Shown here piece after piece: positions 26,410-32,248 of a stretch of 32,248 nt of DNA. The notes below the pieces were generated by a model. The model was not told the DNA's origin. It saw nothing but the letters and a program-made list of their open reading frames with translations, and did no database searches. Within the stretch, counting starts at the first letter, position 1; every line of letters starts with the position of its first letter. Source of the DNA: a candidate division Zixibacteria bacterium RBG_16_53_22 (lineage in GTDB: Bacteria; Zixibacteria; MSB-5A5; UBA10806). The position numbers were made by a program, and so were the translations under genes. The stretch is from assembly GCA_001775395.1 (NCBI GenBank), contig MEWP01000033.1, positions 19,674 to 51,921 of the forward strand, in the 5' to 3' direction.

Positions 26410-28178
26410 TTATCGAGAGCTGTTGACACCAAATCGCCGGGAGCGGCCGTAAGGGGTGGTATCGATAATCTCGCCCCTTTTCAGTTTTCTCTTGGTCTCG
26501 CGCCAGAAGGCCACGGAGAACAGGTCCTCATGGGCCGAAAGGAAGACGCCCCTTAGCGGCTCGGGGATGCCGGAATAGCGGCTGATCTCCTCGACGAAGT
26601 AATCATCCGAGCCGGTCACTATCCAATTCTCCTCGAGCTCCATCTCCTCGTCTCGTCGCGGGGATGCGGCTTGGCCCGGAAATTTATTTTCTCCAGCGGC
26701 AGGACATCGTCATAATCGAATAGGGCGACCCGGCCGCGGCTGGTTACGCCATAATTCCAGGTATTGAAAAGGTCGCTGGGGAAGATCCCTGTGCTGCGAG
26801 GTCTTTCAGGAAATACCCGAAATCTATCACCACCTTGCGGATTGATTCGTGATTCTTGTCATGCAGGACACAGATGGGTAGAGGATTGACTTTCCTCTGC
26901 ACATAGAGGTGGTGGATAACCACGTGGTCCCCCTCGAAAGAAACCAGTCCCTTGGCAGCCGGCGCGAAGTCCCTGAGAAGCGGTTTTGAGAATCTGATCT
27001 TCCCGAAACGCAAGTTCTCGAACTCCTGTGTATCGACCAGGCGGCCGACCCTGTCGCGGTGGCAGACAAAATTGTATTTCTCCACAACTTGCTTTTGGGT
27101 GATCGCCTTGGGGGTAAGCTCCCGGCTTCTGAGGAAGCATGGCCGGTCTTTAACCACCTTGAAAACGAAATTACACCCCGGCATCGTAAAGACGATCATA
27201 ACCGCGCCCTCCTTGCCAGGTGCGATCACGAATTTCTCGTGCGCTTCATGCACGAACCTGTGCAGAGCGCGGTAAAAGACGGTCTTTCCGTGCCGATTGA
27301 ATCCGATACTGGTGCATGGCTCTGAAACCGGCTTGGCCGGAAGGGTTGTCTGCAGGAAAGAAACCAGGGCTTCATGCTTGATAACGTCAACATGGAAATA
27401 CGAATAGGCGAATCCGAGGATGATACTGACCTCGGGTTCGGCCAAAATGACTGTGTCCACATAGACGCCATGTGACCCGTTGTAGATCGGCATGACGATG
27501 GGGATAACTCGGGAGTCGGCTATGATCCTGCCGACTATGTAGCCGGCCTTGTCGCGAAAAAAGACCGGTTCGATCATTTCGAAGGCGCGGGGCTTGTCGA
27601 ATCCGATAACGGGCTACAGACGCAAACTGACCTCGCGGGCGACCAGGGCGGTATCCCGTTCCATATCCTCATACCCGACATTCAGGCTGTGATCGCGCAA
27701 TATCTGCCCGATAAGCACCGGGATATCTCGGCCCGGCGGGTATTTCTTGCGGATACCGCAATTATGGTTGACTTCATGCCGGGTCCGGTCGAGGGTGAAA
27801 AATTCGATTTCGCGGTCAATTCCGACCGTGGAGAAGATTTTTCCTGGTCACCGAATTGTAAGAGGTTCGGGCCCGGTCGGCATCGAACCTGTGCTCTATC
27901 AGAGCCGAGAATCGCTTTCTTATCGATGTCCACAGGGATTTTTCGCAGACTCGCTCTCCTATCAGAGATTTGATATCGGGAGCCAGGCGATCGAGAATCT
28001 TATCGTAAAGGTCGAGCCTTTCGAGAGTATCCGAATGCCTGCCCTTCCAATCGCGGCTCTCGAACCTTCGCCTGGCGCGGCGGGTCATTTCATTGAATTC
28101 ATCGATATAAAGATCAAACCACCTTAAGATTGCGCGGGCGGTCTTGCCCGCAAGCCTGTCATCACCTGTCATCGACAT
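26410..28178 (-). pseudogene. aceK: Decayed isocitrate dehydrogenase kinase/phosphatase
   Basis: AceK switches isocitrate dehydrogenase between active and phosphorylated forms, steering flux to the glyoxylate bypass. The homology runs the whole length: N-terminal ILRWFDLYIDEFNEMTRRA, middle SFHVDV-like and TSIGFNRHGKT segments, ATP-binding VIAPGKEGAVMIVFTMPG, DRVGRLVDTQEFEN and C-terminal HEDLFSVAFWRETKRKL. The frame is broken at least four times: a one-base gain in an A5 run (27838-27842 complement), an in-frame TAG (27614-27616), a one-base loss near 26788-26798 and another shift near 26644-26660. The start is ATG 28178 with AAGGGG upstream. Homopolymer sequencing error could explain one lesion but not four. 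No aceA or aceB is nearby. Confidence 0.88.
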
Positions 28179-31374: not shown

Positions 31375-31857
31375 ATGAATCCCGATAGCAAATTGACGCT
31401 AATATTGAACAAGACCGTTATTTCTACGTCCAAACATGCGTTTGAGGCCTTCATTGAACCGGCCGAGATGTCCCAATGGTTTACGACATCGGCCAAGGCT
31501 GATTTGAGGGTAGGTGGAAAGTATTCCAACGCCGATGGCGATCGGGGCGAATTTCTCACGTTGGATCCTCCGAGGGAGGTGGCTTTCACATGGGAGAATT
31601 CCAAACACTGCCCGGGCACGGTGGTGACGGTGTCATTCACATCGGAATCGGCGGGAATGGTCTTGATCTCGCTGGAGCATTCCGGCCTGAGATCACAGGC
31701 AGATTATGAGGATATGCAGGGCGGCTGGTCGTGGGCGCTGGATTCTTTCAAATCATATGTCGAGACCGGGCGACCAATCCCGCATGAGGAATGGCTGAAG
31801 GCGCGGTCGGGAAAAAACAAACAGCCACCGGGCGGGCTTGAACCGTCGACCTGCTGA
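31375..31857 (+). CDS. SRPBCC (AHSA1-like) domain protein
   Basis: The protein of 160 residues has the START-like hydrophobic-cavity fold of the AHSA1/CalC family: VISTSKHAFEAFIEPAEMSQWF, GGKYSNADGDRGEFL, PREVAFTWEN and the final helix MQGGWSWALDSFKSYVE. Its role is unknown. GGAAGG precedes the ATG. The last 15 residues (GKNKQPPGGLEPSTC) are encoded by the tRNA-Thr relic that follows, so the natural end of the protein has probably been altered, or it always overlapped the tRNA gene. Confidence 0.87.
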   Translation: MNPDSKLTLILNKTVISTSKHAFEAFIEPAEMSQWFTTSAKADLRVGGKYSNADGDRGEFLTLDPPREVAFTWENSKHCPGTVVTVSFTSESAGMVLISLEHSGLRSQADYEDMQGGWSWALDSFKSYVETGRPIPHEEWLKARSGKNKQPPGGLEPSTC

Positions 31858-31877
31858 TTACGAATCAAAGGCTCTCC
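31823..31877 (-). pseudogene. 3' fragment of a tRNA-Thr (anticodon CGT), probable attachment site
   Basis: The minus strand carries the 3' two-thirds of a tRNA: end of the D-arm (AGAGC), anticodon arm with loop TTCGTAA, variable loop, T-arm GGTTCAAGCC and the 3' acceptor strand CGGTGGC with U73. No matching 5' acceptor strand or full D-arm follows, and the T-stem has an A-C mismatch. It is the kind of displaced 3' fragment left by an integrase that uses a tRNA 3' end. The integrase gene lies next to it on the truncated side, so the element extends rightwards (inference). Confidence 0.75.
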
Positions 31878-31932
31878 AATAAAAACCTAACTTATTGGAG
31901 GATAACAAAATGAGTGGAACGAGAGCCTTTGA
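31865..31932. repeat. Nested inverted repeats over the integrase start
   Basis: Outer arms TCAAAGGCTCTC (31865-31876) and GAGAGCCTTTGA (31921-31932) are perfect 12-base complements; the left arm is part of the tRNA-Thr relic and the right arm lies in the integrase coding region. Inner arms CTCCAATAA (31874-31882) and TTATTGGAG (31892-31900) are perfect 9-base complements with a 9-base loop and include the ribosome site GGAGG. Confidence 0.75.
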
Positions 31933-32248
31933 CTTGAAGGAGGTCTTCCTTCAGGACTGCAAGTACAGAAACCTGTCTCCCGCCACCCTCAAGGACTACA
32001 ACTGGTTCTTGACCGACCTGGCGAAAAACCTTGGCGAGCCATCCCAGCTCAATAGGCAGGACATCAAGGCCTTCGTGCTAAAAAAGCTCGAAGAGGGACA
32101 ATCCCCTGCCTCTGCCAATCACTACATCAGGGCGCTAAAGGCCTTCTGTTCATTCCTACAAAGGGAAGGTCATATTGAATCAAACGTCATGGCCGGGCTA
32201 TCGCTGATATCGATGCCGGAGAAGCTCAAGCCCGTTTTGGAGCCTGCC
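31910..32248 (+). CDS. Tyrosine recombinase, N-terminal part
   Basis: The frame runs to the window edge; 113 residues are seen. They form the SAM-like core-binding domain of phage-type tyrosine recombinases: a first helix (LKEVFLQDCKYRNLSPATLKDY), LTDLAKNLG, and ANHYIRALKAFCSFLQREGHI. The catalytic domain is outside. GGAGG at 31897-31901 sets ATG 31910 as start. It lies 32 bases from a tRNA-Thr fragment, as expected for an integrated element whose integrase recognises that tRNA. Confidence 0.85.
   Translation, partial: MSGTRAFDLKEVFLQDCKYRNLSPATLKDYNWFLTDLAKNLGEPSQLNRQDIKAFVLKKLEEGQSPASANHYIRALKAFCSFLQREGHIESNVMAGLSLISMPEKLKPVLEPA

Follow-up and report, generated by a model that had tools for sequence, protein, structure and literature searches.

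The question raised by this locus is what two nested inverted repeats and a fragment of a tRNA gene do at the start of an integrase gene (int), which lies at the edge of the window, the whole stretch of 32,248 nt analysed here. A perfect 12-nt inverted repeat with arms 44 nt apart and a perfect 9-nt inverted repeat are found at this place (Table 1). When random 110-bp pieces of the window were scanned for perfect arms, arms of at least 12 nt occurred in 0/3000 pieces and arms of at least 9 nt in 47/3000, and none of 3000 base shuffles of the repeat region attained a 12-nt arm. The random-piece counts thus place the 12-nt repeat beyond chance, which does not hold for the 9-nt repeat alone. As the initial annotation had stated, the second arm of the 12-nt repeat is inside the coding region, downstream of the ATG at 31910. 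The tRNA-Thr fragment that it reported at the integrase start is real as well: a segment of 54 bp on the minus strand is identical to an intact tRNA-Thr(CGT) locus, called by ARAGORN, on contig C161 of the same genome, and it consists of the 3′ half of the tRNA (31822-31867) and 8 bp beyond the tRNA. The claim that this relic supplies the left repeat arm holds for TCA (31865-31867) only; the tRNA identity stops at 31867, and the remaining nine of the 12 bases are element sequence. The tRNA half is followed by a 42-nt leader with GGAGG and then by the ATG of int.

Table 1. Features at the integrase start, in window coordinates; offsets are counted from the anticodon centre as 0.
Feature	Position	Strand	Basis
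Segment identical to the C161 tRNA-Thr(CGT) locus; integrase-side junction (attR)	31814-31867	-	54-bp identity run and ARAGORN
Anticodon loop, centre 31861; presumed crossover region	31858-31864	-	All elements, the inverted L017 among them, have it within their shared segment
TCAAAGGCTCTC, left arm of the 12-nt repeat (+4 to +15) and proposed half-site on the element side of the core	31865-31876	-	Repeat, leader alignment, offsets
Left arm of the 9-nt repeat	31874-31882	+	Sequence; fully paired in 3/7 leaders
Motif M' TAACTTATTG, +27 to +36, sharing bases with the ribosome site	31888-31897	+	Same offset in 6/7 leaders, +26 in L092
Right arm of the 9-nt repeat, over part of the ribosome site	31892-31900	+	Sequence; leader alignment
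GGAGG ribosome-binding site of int	31897-31901	+	Sequence
Xer-like tyrosine recombinase (integrase), first 113 codons, ended by the contig edge	31910-32248	+	Open frame, Pfam Phage_int_SAM_1
GAGAGCCTTTGA, right arm of the 12-nt repeat and proposed accessory half-site within int, +60 to +71	31921-31932	+	Offset +60 in 6/7 leaders, +59 in L092

An AHSA1-like gene (31375-31857), co-directional with int, runs into the tRNA relic; its stop codon is inside the relic (31855-31857), and its last codons are therefore antisense tRNA sequence. A search of six genomes for an empty site by way of this flanking gene gave one weak match (E 1.2e-4), and the pre-insertion state stays unproven.

The same genome carries a second integrase start on contig C6, with 88% protein identity and with an upstream half from tRNA-Arg(TCG). 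Since contigs C33 and C6 both terminate within the integrase, in the same 84-nt identical run, the assembly broke on the integrase repeat. The intact tRNA-Thr on C161 and the intact tRNA-Arg on C120 are each followed by a further motif, P1, described below, and the shared tRNA segment is 54 bp long for Thr and 57 bp for Arg. The window element thus has a 54-bp tRNA repeat at both ends, with the ends on two contigs and the tRNA restored at one of them; that such ends belong together across separate contigs, for example C33 with C161, is what we infer. An element integrated in a tRNA gene is seen whole in the closed chromosome of a relative (G003, whose position and sequence point to CP070742.1, Candidatus Zixiibacteriota), where a 55-bp repeat, 3781 bp apart, delimits the order tRNA-Phe half, integrase, cargo and intact tRNA-Phe. 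The shared segment includes the anticodon arm, and a boundary with the attachment core elsewhere, which the initial annotation had named as counting against its proposal, was not seen. Its main argument, that relic and integrase leader are brought together in the integrated form alone, fails at the intact-tRNA end, which carries the same 54 bp, as the circle should too. Because the circle would place the same tRNA half directly before the leader, the hairpin would exist in both the integrated and the circular state, and a fold coupled to the state of the attachment site, as originally put, falls away. Between the two forms the promoter would differ rather than the hairpin.

Integrase starts of the window type were found at eight places (the window, L002, L017, L018, L020, L035, L049 and L092), and in all eight a tRNA half is flush against the integrase start; five have a source tRNA, or a near copy, called by ARAGORN. 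The halves come from tRNA Thr-CGT (window), Arg-TCG (L002), Thr-CGT again (L017, here the 5′ half in the opposite orientation), a decayed Thr (L018, 95.7% over 46 bp to the tRNA-Thr of G003), Arg-TCT (L020), Phe (L035) and, as judged by eye, Gly-CCC (L049) and Lys-TTT (L092). The leader can be aligned in seven of the eight starts, with a mean column identity of 74% and one internal 1-nt gap, and since the half of L018 matches the tRNA-Thr of G003, these seven leaders stand by five tRNA genes. The leader of L035, the tRNA-Phe element, was not alignable to the other seven. The int gene of L018 has an in-frame stop, that of L092 is mostly N, and the proteins share as little as 43% with the window copy. 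Searching the named genomes with the truncated protein of the window gave no match; with the alignment as query, six loci were found, the named relatives being Candidatus Zixiibacteriota, and a search of viral contigs gave three distant loci.

In six of the seven leaders the coding-region arm and M' (TAACTYRTTG, with one variant base in L002 and L017) each keep one offset, and in L092 each lies one base nearer to the anticodon centre (Table 1). The ATG shifts, from +46 to +49 in six leaders, and L018 has no ATG there. Related leaders lacking the repeats had been named as evidence that would count against the original proposal; the outer repeat is present in the relatives, with the exception of L035. 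That the two arms match by coincidence, with the coding arm conserved for its protein sequence, the leader arm derived from the tRNA and shared ancestry doing the rest, is highly improbable. The coding arm does encode a conserved R-[AT]-x-D, and the leader arm in L002, L020 and L049 resembles the tRNA sequence past the loop. However, the leader has its single gap over seven sequences even though the proteins have diverged so far, the Arg codon is AGA in 7/7 compared with 26/88 of the Arg codons in four of these genes, and three non-coding copies of the repeat (P1) in the window genome are identical to the coding site.

P1, with the pattern TTCACAGAGA[AG]CNN[CT]TGA, is this third copy of the repeat and lies at the far end of the element. 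In 4/4 ends found (C161, C120, a decayed copy on C69 and G003:430040), the distance from the end of P1 to the anticodon centre is 93 bp, and M begins at -62; these four ends were picked by the pattern itself and are not fully independent, because C69 is related to C161. At G003:430040 the 5′ half of the tRNA lies between P1 and the anticodon centre, and there the distance is kept and the sequence is not. The count takes in these four ends only, with no end from L018, L020, L049 or L092. P1 was not found in G004, G005 and G008, nor by eye in the tRNA-Phe element L035, in which M is at -65. Across 129 genomes the P1 pattern gave five matches, four of them at tRNA ends or at the C69 relic and the fifth (G098) without a tRNA nearby, and the control gave 0 among the matches listed. 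All six genomic copies of the 11-mer core CAAAGGCTCTC are at these element loci, compared with one match for the reversed control pattern. The combined P1 and M pattern matched 11 times in 58 genomes, with three matches at known ends and eight at loci without a tRNA, and its control pattern matched four times. In the wider integrase family M is found in antisense at +54 to +56 in 8/15 loci, a count with two substitutions allowed and no null run. We considered and rejected P1 as a displaced piece of int, since the likeness is confined to about 14 bases.

The decayed copy (G000:C69:16662-16778, covered by L004 and L015) holds a tRNA-Thr 3′ half together with P1, M and a weakened promoter but no tRNA 5′ half, and it is the remnant of an older insertion. 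In G003, P1 and an intact tRNA-Thr (L086, C1:430040-430156) are 25.6 kb to the left of the junction of 5′ half and int in L017 (C1:455776), and both point right. This order is the opposite of that expected from a simple insertion and may reflect two elements or a rearrangement. The genes to the left of this P1 include ArdC (428845) and a ResIII helicase (421671).

An RNA switch is an unlikely reading of the same repeats. In that case base pairing between the leader arm and the coding arm of the int mRNA would mask the ribosome site or the start codon and throttle translation, with the P1 copy in the circle able to pair with the leader instead. The leader of the window folds better than its shuffles (z -3.25), as do those of L002 (-2.5), L017 (-3.6), L020 (-3.2) and L092 (-5.5), but those of L018 and L049 do not (-1.1 and -1.2). 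In the outer helix, 85.5% of cells are paired and 4/12 pairs have both sides changed, compared with 30-46% paired in slid controls; equal pairing was reached in 4/500 shuffles and an equal covariation score in 5/500. Yet the helix has unpaired cells in 6/7 leaders, L020 and L049 both having a C-A mismatch at one position, and inverted copies of a single DNA site would pair regardless. The inner hairpin, formed by the 9-nt repeat that the initial annotation saw as hiding the ribosome site, does cover that site in the window; all nine pairs, with G-U allowed, form only in 3/7 leaders (window, L002 and L017), and the other four have 5 or 6 of 9. A modelled circle transcript gave close values for P1-leader pairing (-61.9 kcal/mol) and leader-coding pairing (-64.6 kcal/mol), and in the accessible part of a report on ICEKp1, stem-loops in the int 5′-UTR attenuate int (PMC13023037). 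An RNA switch predicts neither the fixed distances of 93 and 60 bp nor a copy at the far end; an added RNA role beside the DNA sites may nevertheless exist.

The far ends on C120 and C161 carry sigma-70-like promoter sequences aimed at the junction, TTGACA-16-TATAAT (12/12) on C120 and TTGACA-16-TAACAT (10/12) on C161, in scans that expect 0.4 to 0.7 sites per region by chance. At both ends the P1 pattern starts 7 bp past the -10 box. Judged by eye, the C69 end has a weaker promoter (TCGACA-16-TATTAT) and the G003 end a poor one. In a circle, the promoter strand would lead through P1, M and the antisense tRNA half to the leader and int, so that the layout of a state-dependent promoter, which reads from the far end across the junction into int, is present in the sequence at C120 and C161. 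A scan of 31600-31950 in the window found no promoter.

The reading that we favour, with a probability of roughly two in three, is that the repeats in the window are recombinase half-sites of a rigidly spaced attP, seen here at attR, and that int would be driven by a promoter available only in the circle and would repress itself; the same reading takes the integrase start in the window as the integrase-side junction of a small mobile element whose target is the anticodon arm of tRNA genes. Recombinase-binding sites had been the alternative offered by the initial annotation, and the third copy at the far end, the fixed spacing and the relatives argue for it. In the proposed mechanism the two 12-nt arms would be copies of one half-site, one forming the element side of the crossover core and one an accessory site within int. 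The repeat resembles tRNA anticodon-stem/D-stem sequence, a likeness that would fit cutting in the anticodon loop, and in the accessible part of one report this loop is established as the 7-bp overlap region of other integrases (PMC8371274). With P1 and its sigma-70-like promoter across the junction, and with M at -62 and +27, the excised circle would bring P1, M, the tRNA half and the leader together as a full attP, and the far-end promoter would drive int. Integration would leave that promoter beside the restored tRNA and cut int off. Bound at P1, just past the predicted transcription start, and at the coding site, the integrase may repress its own gene and help to build the synapse, in place of the seemingly missing arm-binding domain.

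It is quite unlikely that the sites are real and are bound by a protein other than the recombinase, such as an excisionase, a host factor or an element repressor. The repeat and M at fixed offsets would allow at least two binders, and the position of P1 so close behind the -10 box is operator-like; however, one of the copies itself makes up the element side of the core, and the repeat looks like tRNA stem sequence as a core half-site should. The start region also matches its own tRNA better than swapped tRNAs over 19 loci (mean 10.2 vs 9.7 of 13, p 0.0006; p 0.004 without L050). With type II loci alone the p value was 0.0008, and with the four window-type loci alone it was 0.5, which is not significant; L035, whose region overlaps the tRNA half, was left out of this test. 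In the wider family, which is about 30% identical, an intact tRNA is just upstream on the same strand in 15/18 loci scanned, two of the others (L051 and L058) being cut by the locus edge and one (L067) having no tRNA; in five more distant loci (L069-L073) no tRNA was seen by eye. Some wider-family loci have a tRNA-like word at the ribosome site of the integrase, most clearly L050 with 13/13 bases.

To our knowledge, the control of direction and expression in integrases without arm-binding domains is little understood. The window copy shows, within the 113 codons before the contig edge, a SAM-like domain only (Phage_int_SAM_1), and the relatives L017, L035, L020, L050 and L056 have SAM-like core-binding and catalytic (PF00589) domains only. 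No N-terminal arm-binding domain was matched in Pfam, and too few residues precede the SAM-like domain to hold one (window, L017, L035 and L020). We rejected classical arm-type sites for the array, as no arm domain is seen in the proteins. The closest family is TIGR02224 (E 8e-57) and the closest solved structure XerD (1a0p, E 2.3e-33), the relatives as a group being closest to solved structures of XerD, XerC-like proteins and XerA. L017 nevertheless scores far below the equivalog cut-offs of XerC (192.9 vs 335) and XerD (178.8 vs 329.6), and the attachment sites here are borne by tRNA genes and are not dif. The phage integrase Gp33 (PDB 5vfz, E 5.6e-12) is a sequence relative; we take it to be the Brujita integrase, which has no arm domain and presumably works without accessory sites. 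More tentatively, and with a probability somewhat below one half, an arm-less integrase family may repeat a tRNA-like half-site at -93, +4 and +60 in place of an arm-binding domain, so that one 12-nt word would set recombination geometry, promoter switching and self-repression. If so, one copy of the half-site is written into int and another stands just behind the circle-only promoter, and because the half-site resembles tRNA genes in general, the element could move between different tRNAs and even insert inverted. The layout is compact, its sites are mapped, the distances between them are fixed and it has several tRNA targets; it shows one integrase lineage spreading over different tRNA genes in a little-studied phylum.

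The individual parts are of known kinds and their combination is new; a search of the open-access literature did not find a description of this site array, which does not prove its absence. The nearest known mechanism is that of the accessory sites of integron attI1 (DR1/DR2), where, in the accessible text of PMC8946536, supplementary sites likewise lie beside the core of a tyrosine recombinase. The proteins are weakly related (the IntI profile TIGR02249 gives 78 bits on L017, below its cut-off of 265; IntI4, E 8e-9), and here, in contrast to attI1, the target is a tRNA gene, one accessory site is in the recombinase gene and one is across the core at 93 bp. A promoter switch that is on only in the circle is reported for ICEKp1, ICEclc and ICEEc1 (PMC13023037; Pcirc of ICEclc, PMC2892462). 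As far as the accessible portions of these reports go, a far-end promoter likewise meets int after the ends join and the int 5′-UTR has stem-loops, but the tRNA promoter, on the same strand, transcribes int in the integrated form. In our elements int is directed away from the antisense tRNA half, no promoter was found in 350 bp of the integrated form, and a copy of the proposed recombinase site stands in the promoter region. Autorepression of a tRNA-linked integrase is reported for intS of KplE1, where an integrase-binding region overlaps the integrase promoter with predicted self-repression (PMC2951348, as accessible in part). That overlap is at attL, whereas in our elements promoter and gene are at opposite ends and would meet only in the circle; a promoter switch and self-repression of int may operate in this family too. 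Like L017, the pTN3-type integrase makes use of a tRNA gene's 5′ half; it differs in being archaeal (PMC8371274, again from the accessible part).

In G008, three loci on C49 (45227, 47819 and 63610; L097, L020 and L094) within 18 kb hold two tRNA-Arg(TCT) 3′ halves, a window-type int and an intact tRNA-Arg beside a type-II int (L037), possibly a tandem of elements of both integrase types. No conjugation genes were found among nine proteins scanned, seven of which are in elements (five on C120 and two in the Phe element), the elements of the window genome not being assembled whole. Beside the Arg end, L013:1339-5449 (G000:C120) codes for a GmrSD_N protein that is close to HEC-05, a candidate defence family (E 2e-44), an ASCH protein and three proteins without a clear family, which are likely cargo of the tRNA-Arg element. 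Besides int, the 3.8-kb Phe element encodes a UspA1-repeat/S74 protein and a 238-aa protein without a Pfam match. Elsewhere in the window, a 277-aa open reading frame (26744-27577) matches only parts of both domains of AceK (isocitrate dehydrogenase kinase/phosphatase) and is a shortened or broken gene.
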